Assembly (NCBI GenBank): GCA_947450025.1
Contig: CANFTW010000008.1
Span: forward strand, 1 to 64,000
Reading direction: 5' to 3'
Length of the DNA: 64,000 nucleotides
DNA from: Bacteroidota bacterium
GTDB taxonomy: Bacteria; Bacteroidota; Bacteroidia; B-17B0; Aurantibacillaceae
Part shown: positions 40,373 to 45,354 of the stretch, piece after piece
Layout: the number at the start of each line of letters is the position of its first letter
Position numbering within the stretch: position 1 is the stretch's first letter
Position numbers and translations under genes: made by a program
The notes under the pieces: generated by a model
What the model was told of the DNA's origin: nothing
The model's input: the letters and a program-made list of their open reading frames with translations, nothing else
The model's database searches: none

Positions 40373-40722
40373 AAAATTACTTTCTTATTGGAGGTGCCAA
40401 TTATACATCAGCCGTTTGCCAATAAAAACCAATTTTTTAGGCGTTTATTTTATTTTTCAACCATTATTGAATCATGACATGAAGCAACAAATCGTACAAA
40501 TTATGCTAGTTTTGTGTTTTTATATGAAAAAATAAATTTCTGTGTTTTTATAACTATCTGATAATCATTTGAAAAAATACATTGAAACCAAAACGAAACC
40601 GATTTGAAACCGAAAAAAAATGAAATTACTTTTTTACTGTATTAATTTGTTTTAATTTGAAATAATAAGCAACCGATTACCTTCAAATTACTTTTTATTG
40701 CAGTAACCCTTAACAATGATAT
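40373..40722. other. 350-bp intergenic region with operator-like repeats
   Basis: No gene is visible in this stretch on either strand. It holds a direct repeat TGTGTTTTTATA (40513-40524 and 40541-40552), the three GAAACC repeats at 40584-40611, and an AT-rich stretch with TTAATTTG at 40642-40649 that resembles the segment ahead of the LamG gene at 42121. It is therefore probably the promoter and operator of the regulator gene at 40723. Confidence 0.6.
40584..40611 (+). promoter_or_regulatory. triple 11-bp-spaced GAAACC repeat, putative operator
   Basis: GAAACC occurs at 40584-40589, 40595-40600 and 40606-40611, exactly 11 bp apart, about one helical turn, so all three face the same side of the DNA. 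Each is preceded by T or C. The same arrangement recurs at 42039-42066 ahead of the next gene. A protein-binding site is the simplest reading. Confidence 0.7.
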
Positions 40723-42003
40723 ATGACCTATTTTTTAAAAAAATGCTTTTTGTTGATTTTAAGTATTGCCACCACTTTATGTAGTTTTGCGCAAACCTTA
40801 ACGCCTAAACAAGACCAATTTATTCGCAAAACCATTGCCACGCAATATGGTGATATGTATAACAAAGAAGTATTAGAAAAAGGACAGGATGTATTTGCAA
40901 TTGTTGGTAAAGATACGATATATAACCCGCATGGATATCATTATGTATTTAAATTAGCAAGTGATACAGCCCAGCGTCTCGATCATTGTGTATGGCATGG
41001 AGGAAATTTTAGGCGATTTTTATTTGCTTATGACGATAATTTGTATGCCTTAGGTGGCTATGGTTTTTTTAACACAAATAATAATTTAGAATATTTTAAT
41101 GCTAAAATTCAAGAGTGGTCTTTTAAACCCACTTTTGGGCAAGTACCACCTTATATTTTAGGCTTGTGTTTTAAAAAAGGGGATACAGTATATAGCCTGA
41201 ACAATTTAAAAAGCGGAAATGGCACCTCGCCTGATGTATATGATACCTGTGTGTATCAATTGAATTTAAAAACCATGAACTGGGAAGCCTTTACAATGCA
41301 AGATAGATGCCCTAGTTTTAATGGGGTTACTTATTATCTTAAAGACTATGTATTTCAGCTTGGTTTTACTAATCAATCATTATTAGTTAAATCAGCCGAA
41401 ATGAAATATTTATTAATAAATAATGAAGATTACGGTTTTTTGAGAGCTTATAACTTTAAGAGAATACGCTACAATTCAATTGACTTAAGATCATTAGGCA
41501 CATCACATGATACGCTTTTTGACAACATTGATTTTGATACCATATGGCAAAAAAATAAAGCAAAAGCCAAATCATTTAATTTAAAACCCATTGCAAAAGC
41601 ATCAAACACACAAAGCCTAACGTGGTTATATGTAGTAATGGGAGCCACCATGTTGTGTTTACTTGCCTTATTAATTTATATCAAACGTCAAGCTGTAAAT
41701 ACCCAAATGACATTAACCGAGGAAGATGTTTTAATAGAGCATGAACCCAAAACCTCGTCATTAAACACTGAATTGCCAATCGATTTATATGCGCTATTAT
41801 GCCAAAGCGATAAAACCATTTTAGTGACGGAAGAGTTGGATGAATTATTGGGCATTGCTCATTTAGAGCCCGACAGTAAAAAATTAAAACGCCACCGTTT
41901 ATTAAGTGAACTCGAAAAAAATCATCCCGGATTTATTAGCCGAACAAAAGATCCTATTGATAAACGACGTTTTACCTACCAACTTACCAAACCTACTCAT
42001 TAA
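40723..42003 (+). CDS. candidate transmembrane one-component regulator: Kelch-like sensor, TM helix, winged-helix-like tail
   Basis: 426 residues. A signal peptide (about 1-23, cut before Gln24) is followed by a periplasmic part with Kelch-like strands (NLYALGGYGFFNTNNN at 106-121, then EYFNAKIQEWSF). One membrane helix lies at about 300-320 (WLYVVMGATMLCLLALLIYI), then KRQ. The cytoplasmic tail (about 350-424) reads as two or three helices plus a wing: ELDELLGIAHL, SKKLKRHRLLSELEK, then ISRTKDPIDKRRFTYQL, similar to winged-helix regulators. No kinase or receiver domain is present. Triple GAAACC repeats precede both this gene and its downstream neighbour, suggesting autoregulation plus one target. 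The regulator role is inference. Confidence 0.66.
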   Translation: MTYFLKKCFLLILSIATTLCSFAQTLTPKQDQFIRKTIATQYGDMYNKEVLEKGQDVFAIVGKDTIYNPHGYHYVFKLASDTAQRLDHCVWHGGNFRRFLFAYDDNLYALGGYGFFNTNNNLEYFNAKIQEWSFKPTFGQVPPYILGLCFKKGDTVYSLNNLKSGNGTSPDVYDTCVYQLNLKTMNWEAFTMQDRCPSFNGVTYYLKDYVFQLGFTNQSLLVKSAEMKYLLINNEDYGFLRAYNFKRIRYNSIDLRSLGTSHDTLFDNIDFDTIWQKNKAKAKSFNLKPIAKASNTQSLTWLYVVMGATMLCLLALLIYIKRQAVNTQMTLTEEDVLIEHEPKTSSLNTELPIDLYALLCQSDKTILVTEELDELLGIAHLEPDSKKLKRHRLLSELEKNHPGFISRTKDPIDKRRFTYQLTKPTH

Positions 42004-42038
42004 GCTATAAGCTTGATAATCACCGATACTAATTAATT

Positions 42039-42066
42039 GAAACCGTTTTGAAACCGAAACGAAACC
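42039..42066 (+). promoter_or_regulatory. second triple GAAACC repeat, putative operator of the LamG gene
   Basis: GAAACC at 42039-42044, 42050-42055 and 42061-42066, again with exact 11-bp spacing and the same orientation as the set at 40584. A shared TTAATTTG follows at 42088-42095, and the ATG is 54 bp after the last repeat. The linker bases differ from the first set, so the hexamers look selected rather than recently copied. Confidence 0.7.
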
Positions 42067-42120
42067 AATAAACTTGGGATTTCATGTTTAATTTGTTTTT
42101 AAATTTAAAAAGTAAATAAC

Positions 42121-43383
42121 ATGAAAAAAATAATGATTTTAGTAATGACTGCCTTTTGCAGTTTAAGTGCTTTGGCACAAACCGTCCCTGCTTATGTTCC
42201 GAGCAATGGTTTAGTGGGTTGGTGGCCTTTTAATGGCAATGCTATTGATGAAAGTATTAATAGCAACAATGGTATAGTTAATGGCGCAACCTTAACTACT
42301 AATAGATTTGGAATTGCAAATAGTTCCTATAGCTTTGATGGAGTAGATGATTTAATCGACATTAATAACATAACAAATACTATTAATGATTGGTCTATTT
42401 CTTTTTGGTTTAATTCTTTGAATAGTTCTATTTTTGGAATTCAAAATCCATTAGGAATTGGACCGCCTATGGCAACATATGGTGGGGCTGGATTTTCGAT
42501 TTATGGAGGAGTCGCCCCAGGACAATGTCCAATATTTAATTCGATCCCAAATAAAATGTTAATATGTGATAATACTCAAACCTGTGGTAATTTAATTTTT
42601 GCTGATACGTGGTTAAATAATATTTGGTATAATATTACTATTTTGAAAGTAAATACAACTTATTCTATTTATGTTAATGGTATATTAAATGTAACTGGTA
42701 CAATAAACAATATTAGTCCAACAGAATTACATTTTGGAAACAAAGCTCAATTAACATTTCAATATTTTAGTGGTAAATTAGATGATATCGGTATTTGGGA
42801 TCGTGCCTTAACACAGCAAGAAATTACTAATTTATATAATTCTTGCACTCAAACTTCAATAGCATCTCAACCAACCAATCAAACAATTTTATCGGGTACT
42901 AATGCTGTCTTTACAGTATCAGAGACTACTGGTGCATTATTGCAATGGCAAACTAATTTAGGTCTAGGGTATCAAAATTTAAGCAATGCGGGTCAGTATA
43001 GTGGAGTTAATACCCAAACCCTTACAATAAGTAATGTCAGTGCTAGCAATACTAACCAAACTTTTAGATGTATAGTTGGAACAGGTTCTTGTAGCGATAC
43101 AACTGATGTTGTTGCCTTGAGTTTATCTCCAGTAAGCATTGAAGAATTAGCTTTATTGAAAAACATCGAAGTATATCCTAATCCAACTAGCTCCCAGGTA
43201 AATATTAATACTGACGCTAAATTTTCATCTATTCAAATTATAAATAGTGTAGGTCAATTAGTATTTACTAAAGAGGCAAGTTATACCTTGGATGTATCCT
43301 CATTAAGCCATGGTATTTATTTTATCAAATTATACAATGAGCAAGGTCAACTTTTAAAGGCTTCAAAATTTGTAAAAGAGTAA
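42121..43383 (+). CDS. T9SS-exported LamG-domain protein
   Basis: 420 residues. The signal peptide is MKKIMILVMTAFCSLSALA, cut before Gln20. A LamG/concanavalin-like domain (about 32-242) begins GLVGWWPFNGNAIDES, has SYSFDGVDDLIDI near 70-82 and ends KLDDIGIWDRALTQQEI. An Ig-like stretch follows (about 245-340, TNQTILSGTNAVFTVSETTG, with a Cys pair). The last 72 residues from IEVYPNPTSSQVNI to the Lys-Glu end form the T9SS sorting tail. It is probably a surface glycan-binding or adhesion protein. The triple GAAACC repeat upstream ties it to the regulator gene before it. A terminator follows at 43405. Confidence 0.9.
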   Translation: MKKIMILVMTAFCSLSALAQTVPAYVPSNGLVGWWPFNGNAIDESINSNNGIVNGATLTTNRFGIANSSYSFDGVDDLIDINNITNTINDWSISFWFNSLNSSIFGIQNPLGIGPPMATYGGAGFSIYGGVAPGQCPIFNSIPNKMLICDNTQTCGNLIFADTWLNNIWYNITILKVNTTYSIYVNGILNVTGTINNISPTELHFGNKAQLTFQYFSGKLDDIGIWDRALTQQEITNLYNSCTQTSIASQPTNQTILSGTNAVFTVSETTGALLQWQTNLGLGYQNLSNAGQYSGVNTQTLTISNVSASNTNQTFRCIVGTGSCSDTTDVVALSLSPVSIEELALLKNIEVYPNPTSSQVNINTDAKFSSIQIINSVGQLVFTKEASYTLDVSSLSHGIYFIKLYNEQGQLLKASKFVKE

Positions 43384-43403
43384 ATGCGCTTACCGTTACT
43401 AAA

Positions 43404-43497
43404 CAAAAAACCCGAAGTATTTACTTCGGGTTTTTTAATGATAGTTAAAACTTTCTAAACTTATAAAGTTCCTCTTAATGCTTGCTCTCTTTCAATC
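43404..43497. repeat. direct repeat copy 1: displaced hppD 3' end and terminator
   Basis: 94 bp matching 44111-44230 except for a 25-bp deletion between two AACTTTC repeats, a one-base T-run difference and a few substitutions. On the reverse strand it still encodes residues 376-386 of HppD (IEREQALRGTL and stop), with one synonymous change (Leu TTG to TTA). Confidence 0.88.
43405..43436. terminator. bidirectional terminator, copy 1
   Basis: AAAAAACCCGAAGTA (43405-43419) and its exact complement TACTTCGGGTTTTTT (43422-43436) form a hairpin with A/T tails on both sides. It can end both the LamG gene (+) and the ORF6N gene (-). It is nearly identical to the terminator at 44112. Confidence 0.88.
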
Positions 43498-44036
43498 TAT
43501 TTTTTCGGTAATTTATAGCCAATTTTAGTCCTTGGTTTTGCTGTCTCTTTTTTTGCTGTTAGTTCATCAAAGTATTGAAAAACAACATCTATATTTTTTG
43601 TATTATTATCTGTTTTCTTTTCTAGTTTCTCTATTGCTAAACGTATTTCAGTGTTATCCATCAATAATTGTCTGATACGAGCAAAAACTCGCATAATTTG
43701 AATATTAACATATATAGCTCTATCACTGCTCAATACTCCTGATAGCATTGCTAAACCTTGTTCTGTGAAAACTAATGGTAGTTTTCGTGTACCGCCCCAA
43801 CTTGATGTCACATGTTGTGATATCAAGTTTTCAAATTCAGGTTCTGTTAACTGAAACATAAAATCATCAGGAAAGCGTTTTATATTTCTTTTTACTTGCT
43901 GGTTTAAAACCCTTGTTTCTACTTGGTATAATTCAGCTAAATCTCTATCTAGCATCACTTTTTGGTTTCTAATAATATAAATCTTATTTGTAACTACATC
44001 GTCAGGAATTAGTTGTAAATTTTCTTTTTCTGGCAT
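43497..44036 (-). CDS. ORF6N domain protein (phage antirepressor-like)
   Basis: 179 residues. The ORF6N domain spans about 10-95: IYIIRNQKVMLDRDLAELYQ, TRVLNQQVKRNIKRFPDDFM and FTEQGLAMLSGVL. It is followed by a helical, coiled-coil-like segment and a basic tail, KIGYKLPKK. ORF6N domains are DNA-binding modules first described in phage regulators and are common as lone genes in Bacteroidota. No other phage gene is nearby. The stop TAG aligns with the Ser375 codon TCG of the duplicated hppD end, and the next codons continue in the HppD frame, so the gene's stop lies at the repeat junction. Target and role are unknown. Confidence 0.88.
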   Translation of the reverse strand: MPEKENLQLIPDDVVTNKIYIIRNQKVMLDRDLAELYQVETRVLNQQVKRNIKRFPDDFMFQLTEPEFENLISQHVTSSWGGTRKLPLVFTEQGLAMLSGVLSSDRAIYVNIQIMRVFARIRQLLMDNTEIRLAIEKLEKKTDNNTKNIDVVFQYFDELTAKKETAKPRTKIGYKLPKK

Positions 44037-44110
44037 TTTCTTTTAAATTATAAAAGCAAAGTAAAGTAATAAAATAGCAGCATGTTGCCACAAAATATAG
44101 CAATATAAAG

Positions 44111-44230
44111 CAAAAAACCCGAAGTATTTACTTCGGGTTTTTTTAATTATAGTTAAAACTTTCTTAACTTTTTAACCTTCCAACTTTCTAAACTTATAAA
44201 GTTCCTCTCAATGCTTGCTCTCTTTCAATC
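44111..44230. repeat. direct repeat copy 2: functional hppD 3' end and terminator
   Basis: 120 bp including the last 11 codons of hppD, a short spacer and the terminator. It pairs with 43404-43497. The 25-bp segment missing from copy 1 lies between AACTTTC repeats in this copy, so copy 1 is probably the degraded one. Confidence 0.88.
44112..44143. terminator. bidirectional terminator of hppD, copy 2
   Basis: AAAAAACCCGAAGTA (44112-44126) pairs exactly with TACTTCGGGTTTTTT (44129-44143). It lies just after the hppD stop on the reverse strand and upstream of the ORF6N gene. Confidence 0.87.
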
Positions 44231-45354
44231 GATTCGAACAAGGCTTTAAAGTTACCAGCGCCAAAACCTTTAGCACCCATACGTTGGATGATTTCGTAGA
44301 ATAACGTTGGTCTGTCTTCTACTGGTTTAGTGAAGATTTGTAACAAATATCCTTCTTCATCGGCATCTACTAGAATTGATAATTTTTGAAGTTCTTTAAT
44401 ATCCTCTTTCATCATATCCATGTGCACGCCTAATCTTCTTGGAATATCATCATAGTATGCTTGAGGAGGAGGAGGTAAGAACTCAACACCACGTGCTTTT
44501 AAATCAGCAACGGTTTTAATGATGTCATCCGTTGCTAAGGCTAAATGTTGAACGCCAGCCCCTTCATAAAAATCAATATACTCTTCAATTTGAGATTTTT
44601 TCTTTCCTTCTGCTGGTTCGTTAATTGGAAATTTAATTCTACCATTTCCGTTACTCATGACCTTACTCATTAAAGCAGAGTACTCAGTGGTAATTTGTTT
44701 GTCATCAAAGGTTAAAAAGTTAACAAATCCCATAACGTCTTCATACCATTTCACAGTCGCATTCATTTGGTTCCAACCCACATTACCAACCATGTGATCA
44801 ATAAATTTTAAACCAACAGCTGCTGGGTTATAGTCACTTTTCCATTCTCTAAATCCTGGTAAAAATTCTCCTTTGTAATTTTTACGTTCCACAAACATGT
44901 GTACAGTTTCTCCGTAAGTATAAATACCAGCACGCACCACTTCACCATGTTCATCTTTTTCTACTACAGGTTCCATGTAAACTTTAGCGCCACGCTTTAC
45001 TGTTTCTTCAAATGATTTACGAGCGTCTTCCACCCATAAAGCAATGACCTTAACGCCATCACCATGTTTTTTAACATGCTCACCAATTGGCGAATCGCTG
45101 GTCAATGCTGTTGTTAATACTAAACGAATTTTGTCTTGTTTTAAAACATAAGATACTCTGTCTTTTAACCCTGTTTCTAACCCGGCATACGCATAAGATT
45201 GGAAACCAAAAGCCGTTTTATAATAGTGTGCAGATTGTTTGGCGTTACCTACGTAAAACTCTACATAATCAGTTCCTAATAAAGGCAAGAAATCTTGCGC
45301 TCCTTCAAATATTTTTTCTAGTCCGTATTCTACGTTTTTTACTTCTTTAGCCAT
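44194..45354 (-). CDS. hppD: 4-hydroxyphenylpyruvate dioxygenase
   Basis: 386 residues. This non-heme iron enzyme converts 4-hydroxyphenylpyruvate to homogentisate using O2, the second step of tyrosine breakdown. The iron ligands are visible: His187 in FIDHMVGNV, His270 in GVQHLALATDD and Glu354 in LFYEIIQRMG. The C-terminal helix GFGAGNFKALFESIEREQ, which closes the active site, is intact. hmgA, for the next step, lies upstream on the same strand with one small gene between. The last codons and terminator are duplicated beyond the ORF6N gene downstream. Confidence 0.96.
   Translation of the reverse strand: MAKEVKNVEYGLEKIFEGAQDFLPLLGTDYVEFYVGNAKQSAHYYKTAFGFQSYAYAGLETGLKDRVSYVLKQDKIRLVLTTALTSDSPIGEHVKKHGDGVKVIALWVEDARKSFEETVKRGAKVYMEPVVEKDEHGEVVRAGIYTYGETVHMFVERKNYKGEFLPGFREWKSDYNPAAVGLKFIDHMVGNVGWNQMNATVKWYEDVMGFVNFLTFDDKQITTEYSALMSKVMSNGNGRIKFPINEPAEGKKKSQIEEYIDFYEGAGVQHLALATDDIIKTVADLKARGVEFLPPPPQAYYDDIPRRLGVHMDMMKEDIKELQKLSILVDADEEGYLLQIFTKPVEDRPTLFYEIIQRMGAKGFGAGNFKALFESIEREQALRGTL

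Follow-up and report, generated by a model that had tools for sequence, protein, structure and literature searches.

A putative membrane-bound Kelch and winged-helix regulator with tandem GAAACC arrays before its own gene and an adjacent T9SS LamG gene

The stretch analysed here, referred to as the window, comprises the first 64,000 nucleotides of contig CANFTW010000008.1 (assembly GCA_947450025.1) from a bacterium of the Bacteroidota. It carries two consecutive genes, one for a putative membrane-bound regulator with a Kelch-like propeller and a C-terminal winged-helix-like tail, and the other for a LamG surface protein with a sorting tail of the type IX secretion system (T9SS), each preceded by an array of GAAACC hexamers and a putative promoter box (Table 1). 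The first product is probably an inner-membrane one-component regulator, SusR-like in kind, that activates its own gene and the adjacent LamG gene.

Table 1. Features of the regulator–LamG locus, in positions of the window
Feature	Position	Strand	Basis or remark
Regulator gene, 426 aa	40723..42003	+	Open reading frame confirmed
N-terminal hydrophobic segment, probable signal peptide, residues about 4-27	40732..40803	+	Hydropathy
Kelch-like beta-propeller, residues 27-278, presumed periplasmic	40801..41556	+	Structure prediction and Pfam
Single transmembrane helix, residues 298-324	41614..41694	+	Hydropathy and predicted model
C-terminal winged helix, residues 348-426 (recognition helix about 383-400, wing 405-421)	41764..42000	+	Predicted
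Operator array 1 (predicted), GAAACCAAAACGAAACCGATTTGAAACC	40584..40611	+	5′ of regulator gene; GAAACC x3 at exact 11-bp steps
Operator array 2 (predicted), GAAACCGTTTTGAAACCGAAACGAAACC	42039..42066	+	5′ of LamG gene; GAAACC x3 at exact 11-bp steps
Putative -7 box, regulator promoter, TTAATTTG	40642..40649	+	TTTG ends 38 nt past array; second copy 40652-40659
Putative -7 box, LamG promoter, TTAATTTG	42088..42095	+	TTTG ends 29 nt past array
LamG surface protein gene with T9SS sorting tail, 420 aa	42121..43383	+	Open reading frame confirmed
Laminin_G_3 domain	42337..42825	+	Pfam, above cut-off
Por_Secre_tail sorting domain	43171..43356	+	Pfam, above cut-off
Likely terminator after LamG gene, stem then T run	43401..43436	.	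By eye

An earlier note, made from the letters of the window, had read the first product as a Kelch-like part, one transmembrane helix and a winged-helix-like tail, and prediction bears out all three (hydropathy places the helix at residues 298-322). The Pfam Kelch match of this protein stays below the cut-off (25.9 versus 50 bits), and the predicted propeller matches Kelch structures with Z scores of up to 11.7 (5.7 Å, 228 residues). The tail, modelled alone from 21 sequences (pLDDT 82), shows the order helix, strand, helix, helix, strand, strand (H-E-H-H-E-E), which is that of a winged helix. When this model was searched against the PDB with Foldseek, the best 50 of 623 matches (E up to 10) were MarR-type regulators, several of them DNA-bound, with probabilities of 0.96-1.00 and a best E of 2.8e-3; for several of these matches, we take the MarR family from their names. 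An Asp and an Arg of the wing are the sole invariant columns of the tail among the 21 sequences. No DNA-binding model scored above its cut-off, either in Pfam (11 tails and 21 full proteins) or in NCBIfam (full proteins).

A full-length search found members of this family in 8 of 100 genomes, its own included, one of them (L011) being a Kelch-only match and a more divergent member. A class-wide search with a profile of the tail detected members in 10 of 395 genomes, spread over 9 of 197 genera, and an order-wide one in 9 of 87 genomes, the own genome again included in both; the 10 full open reading frames (ORFs) from the class-wide search are 381-463 aa long and have the tail at the C-terminus. 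In all, 23 family loci were read at full length, the window among them, with L015 dropped (same contig as L017) and the partial ORF G361 left out. The divergent L011/L026, with a tail score of 4.8 bits, was excluded from alignments and counts; alignment A3 omits L022, a near copy of L021, and G464 and G443, which belong to the 23, appear in neither A3 nor A4. By hydropathy, a transmembrane-like segment is present in 20 of the 21 aligned members, between residues 269 and 353, and the Pfam Kelch model PF24681 matches 16 of the 21 at E up to 0.01. The own genome holds a second family copy on contig C1, 39% identical. One relative lies on contig CAITNS010000077 of an uncultured Bacteroidetes bacterium, and this relative, together with the T9SS tails, suggests that the family genomes belong to the Bacteroidia. 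At two loci, L058 (G184) and L060 (G166), two regulator genes stand in tandem with inverted repeats nearby, namely AGGTAACA...TGTTACCT between the two genes in G184 and TAAAGATATGAAA...TTTCATATCTTTA 5′ of the first gene in G166.

The two arrays of the window lie on the same strand, and the coordinates and the 11-bp spacing given in the earlier note are confirmed. With up to two mismatches allowed, the triple has only these two matches in 64 kb, versus none in 100 dinucleotide shuffles, in agreement with the note, which had seen no third set. The exact triple proved rare in the genome-wide scan as well: it occurs twice in the whole 3.2-Mb genome, both times at this gene pair, and a dispersed regulon of exact triples in the own genome was accordingly rejected. 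Single GAAACC hexamers, by contrast, show no clear enrichment in the window (33 versus a mean of 26 expected, with 8 of 100 shuffles reaching 33), and the signal therefore resides in the tandem spacing. Looser patterns were less telling. GAAACC-N5-GAAACC has 12 matches in 22 genomes, seven at family loci and five elsewhere, versus 11 for the reversed control, so that only the places and not the total are informative; three AACC units occur at chance numbers (15 matches, four at family loci, versus 20 for the control). GGTTTC-N10-RAAACC matches at family loci and also at many scattered places; two of the latter (G000:C9 and G055:C49) lie inside long ORFs on inspection and were dismissed.

Among relatives, the arrays recur in varied form. 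Ten family genes make up a close group (the window and L016-L024, of which L020 comes from another genus of the same taxonomic family), and nine of them have GAAACC or its complement on both flanks within 250 nt (upstream 151 nt for L020), while L024 has GAAACC on its downstream flank only. Both flanks of L017 carry arrays with the 11-bp step, GAAACC-GAAACC-GCAACC upstream and GAAACC x3 downstream, although there the regulator is followed by a small lipoprotein-like ORF instead of LamG. By eye, each side of L018 displays seven NNACC units, the first six spaced by 11 bp and the last following after a 10-bp step, and L016, L019 and L020-L023 combine inverted with direct half-sites. In G220 (L056/L125), from another taxonomic family, the array AAAACC-GAAACT-GAAACC, again with an 11-bp step, stands twice, once before the LamG gene and once before the gene that follows the regulator and whose partial product looks secreted; TAGTTTTG and TAATTTTG lie 3′ of the two arrays. 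The 21 loci, 321,547 nt in total, contain the strict triple at five sites, each of them in a family flank. Across 31 genomes, 16 of which carry a family gene, RAAACY x3 at 11 bp has eight sites and its reversed control none; five of the eight are at family loci and the other three are made of AAAAC units. The pair RAAACY-N5/6-RAAACY was counted in 11 loci: their flanks (4,780 nt) hold 19 copies and the remaining 192,000 nt five, L018 and L025 having none. Moreover, in 8 of the 20 loci compared, namely the window, L017-L022 and G166a, the upstream and downstream flanks have a repeat in common that exceeds 20 resampled controls.

The shared sequence that the earlier note had seen after each array is TTAATTTG, located 3′ of both. 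TAnnTTTG is the sigma-A -7 consensus reported for a flavobacterium (PMC9723704). The distance to a -7-like box was measured for eight array promoters, two each from the window, L017, L018 and G220, counting from the last array base and searching TTTG at 28-30 or 37-40 nt. TTTG ends 38 nt past the array upstream in the window and L017, 29 nt past it downstream in the window and L017 and on both sides of L018, and 39 nt past it in both promoters of G220; its density in the measured regions is 0.013 per nt. At the -33 spacing, 15-24 nt before the -7 box, TTG is present in none of the eight. The absent -33 contact and the array-to-box geometry suggest that the array promoters are activated, and they fit an activator that would replace this contact.

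The second gene encodes, as the earlier note had it, a surface LamG protein with a sorting tail: Laminin_G_3 and Por_Secre_tail both score above their cut-offs, the latter with 51.9 versus 27 bits, and so does TIGR04183 (42.3 versus 23). In 6 of the 23 loci, the regulator lies directly beside a LamG gene whose product has a T9SS tail (window, L018, L019, G464 and G430, where the two genes are divergent, and G220, where the LamG gene lies upstream), and in L023 a LamG gene is the second gene downstream. Genomes with a family gene, 16 in number, have 0-12 Laminin_G_3 matches each, and if about 3,000 genes per genome are assumed, chance adjacency amounts to at most about 0.8% per gene; at a chance rate of 1%, six of 23 has a binomial P of 9e-8, with the related loci not being independent. 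The pairing proposed in the earlier note thus recurs in three taxonomic families, whereas LamG as an invariant partner is ruled out. Among the remaining neighbours, Pfam recognised an outer-membrane barrel protein and a large T9SS protein, and reading of the N-terminus pointed to lipoproteins; the neighbours of L020 and L024 had no match in the Pfam scan. In L020, L021, L022 and L023, a DUF805 RNA (RF03081) separates the regulator from a gene downstream of it, and in L017 it stands before later genes; sub-threshold DUF805b matches occupy the space between the regulator and the next gene in L016, L019 and L024. No Rfam match reached the gathering score in the window. The DUF805 RNA is possibly a second layer of target control.

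Given the architecture, its conservation, the arrays, their distance to the -7-like box and the LamG neighbourhood, all read from sequence or prediction, the following mechanism may be proposed. With the membrane orientation that we infer, the Kelch propeller would receive a cue in the periplasm, and the single transmembrane helix would relay it inward. The cytoplasmic C-terminal winged helix would then bind the tandem GAAACC half-sites head to tail, nearly on one face of the DNA, and the bound regulator, standing in for the missing -33 contact, would most likely activate its own promoter and that of the LamG gene. The proposal of the earlier note that a single protein regulates itself and the adjacent surface gene is supported, and neither outcome that it had named as refuting came about: the tail is predicted to be a winged helix, and the arrays are rare, are placed at family genes and recur among relatives.

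Several findings weigh against this reading. All Foldseek matches of the tail have E values of 0.001 or more, and the fold assignment depends on a predicted model; the slower aligner VIA yields Z scores of 6.9 at most, its matches being various winged helices, including ToxR and ArlR, and some unrelated folds; and sequence searches with the tail return just sub-threshold MarR/SarA matches and unrelated chains. On the model and these mixed matches, a winged helix of uncertain kinship is the most likely fold. The N-terminal hydrophobic segment is above the cut-off in 13 of 21 members, and the charge following the transmembrane segment is mixed among members. As to the conservation of the repeats, arrays do recur at family genes, yet only three of the 16 genomes with a family gene retain the strict triple, while the repeats of the rest are rearranged or of another kind, and the flank-shared repeat does not exceed 20 resampled controls in L016, L023, L024 and nine others. 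Outside the close group, 10 of 11 members have no GAAACC within 250 nt, and a family-wide GAAACC motif is thus not supported; the G220 arrays lie farther out, G184b and G166a have inverted or other repeats, and GGTAA words are present in G432 and G430 (by reading). At the promoters, TTAATTTG matches TAnnTTTG imperfectly, the spacing of 29 in L018 requires that the last unit be counted at its 10-bp step (otherwise it is 39), and further TTTGs occur in four of six promoters inspected (window upstream, L017 downstream, L018 downstream, and G220 at 70 nt). With fixed search windows and further TTTGs elsewhere, the spacing is therefore partly a selected result. Nor are the eight promoters independent, given that L018 and G220 each represent a duplicated pair and that the window and L017 are homologous. 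Finally, the neighbour is other than LamG in 17 of the 23 loci, some of which have one neighbour beyond the contig end.

Activation is argued from geometry alone, and this geometry would be compatible with repression too. In that case, the array would cover the -33 region and the bound protein would block RNA polymerase until a periplasmic cue frees it. Exclusion of the polymerase fits an array beside a promoter equally well, and the nearest folds of the tail are MarR-type winged helices, which are often repressors. Such a mode of action is possible though unlikely, in that promoters devoid of TTG at the -33 spacing in eight of eight cases look weak unaided, and SusR, the nearest kind by layout, is an activator according to the work on it (PMC3878776). 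That some other, unlinked protein uses the arrays as its operators, with the membrane protein as merely one target, is improbable. The tail reaches the cut-off of no known DNA-binding family by sequence, and its binding to the arrays is itself presumed, which leaves room for such a protein; however, a general regulator would have further targets, whereas GAAAC-type triples (five of the eight matches in 31 genomes) are only at family loci, and the half-sites of L016, L019 and L020-L024, although rearranged, are still at the family gene.

Long direct repeats bracket the regulator at two loci. In L018, a repeat of 174 bp (89%) encloses the regulator gene, its upstream copy holding a remnant of the 3′ end of the gene; in L125 (G220:C59), a repeat of 586 bp (89%) encloses the LamG gene and the regulator, with an array and promoter in each copy. 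That the GAAACC repeats are a mere by-product of duplication, with regulator and flank duplicated side by side or transferred together as a cassette, so that flank similarity reflects descent only, is favoured by these two loci but is very improbable, since neither the window nor L017 has a long direct repeat bracketing the regulator, their half-sites, 11-bp step and distance are kept although the sequence between array and TTTG differs, and copying may be a route to new targets rather than a rival to operator function. Copying of operator and promoter, with or without the gene, likely brings new neighbours under control. A separate direct repeat in the window, 43401-43501 and 44108-44234 (76% over 127 columns), brackets the gene at 43497-44036 (-), presumably of ORF6N type, and combines a terminator-like stem with the 3′-terminal part of the gene at 44194-45354, which we take to be dioxygenase-like; it looks as if the bracketed gene entered with a copy of its neighbour's end. 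In L021 and L022, a gene that by eye resembles the bracketed one lies directly 5′ of the regulator homologue.

The activator reading can be extended, doubtfully, to the entire class: Bacteroidia-wide, membrane-tethered regulators might form head-to-tail polymers on 11-bp arrays while keeping T9SS surface-protein promoters close to the membrane, with the propeller reading the periplasmic passage or the surface state of its own cargo in a one-protein feedback loop for surface display, and with new cargo recruited by operator-promoter copying before other surface genes. The family was found because its operators can be read from raw sequence, and surveys starting from known domains would probably miss it, for no Pfam or NCBIfam model marks the tail. 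It is a candidate for a regulator specific to T9SS surface proteins and provides, for one membrane-bound regulator, a predicted binding site at base resolution, a promoter geometry and a target, so that the way such regulators act from the membrane could be tested directly on a single protein and a single DNA fragment.

Among known systems, MarR regulators provide the nearest folds for the tail, along with a weak local sequence match over the wing with a common Asp-x-Arg. Pfam MarR PF01047 scores 13.5 bits against the window tail, below the gathering cut-off of 24.6, and at E up to 10 it matches 2 of 11 tails. MarR proteins dimerise through further helices, whereas the 79-residue tail model has none and the half-sites are in tandem. 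As in the predicted arrangement, OmpR, PhoB and PhoP use winged helices on direct repeats that recur every 11 bp; for PhoP, these comprise a 7-bp motif and a 4-bp spacer (PMC4832192). Unlike OmpR and PhoB, the window regulator is predicted to be membrane-bound. Within the regulator family, Pfam detected neither a receiver domain nor Trans_reg_C, nor the histidine kinase and receiver domains of the HTCS type.

ToxR and CadC have an N-terminal DNA-binding domain, whereas the tail of the window regulator is C-terminal and follows a putative signal peptide; like them, the window regulator would unite a transmembrane segment with a DNA-binding domain, both of them predicted in its case. Both belong to the TTRs, DNA-binding one-component proteins anchored in the cytoplasmic membrane, for which a 2023 survey found the DNA-binding domains by Pfam models (PMC10269533). 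Because none of these models recognises the tail, the family was probably missed there.

One-component regulators that sit in the inner membrane and bind DNA through a C-terminal domain are already known in Bacteroidetes, SusR being one (PMC3878776). The earlier note knew of no described system of this exact composition, and the titles and abstract openings of the papers retrieved indeed describe no Kelch–transmembrane–winged-helix regulator in Bacteroidetes, but the kind as such is not new. According to the same paper, SusR and BT3705 have a periplasmic sensor and a cytoplasmic C-terminal DNA-binding domain reported to be unlike other known families, and SusR activates susA and susBCDEFG, with direct-repeat sites predicted (PMC3878776). 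The predicted domain order of the window regulator fits that of SusR, with the membrane orientation presumed. The sensor of SusR differs from the Kelch propeller; its sites are two predicted boxes with centres 67 or 77 bp apart, compared with three contiguous 11-bp units in the window and more in L018; and SusR-like targets are starch or dextran systems in that paper, whereas those of the window family would be LamG and other envelope or secreted proteins. As the likeness is one of layout, the regulator is not filed as SusR itself; the two would share a membrane one-component layout, a periplasmic sensor, direct-repeat sites and, probably, their action.

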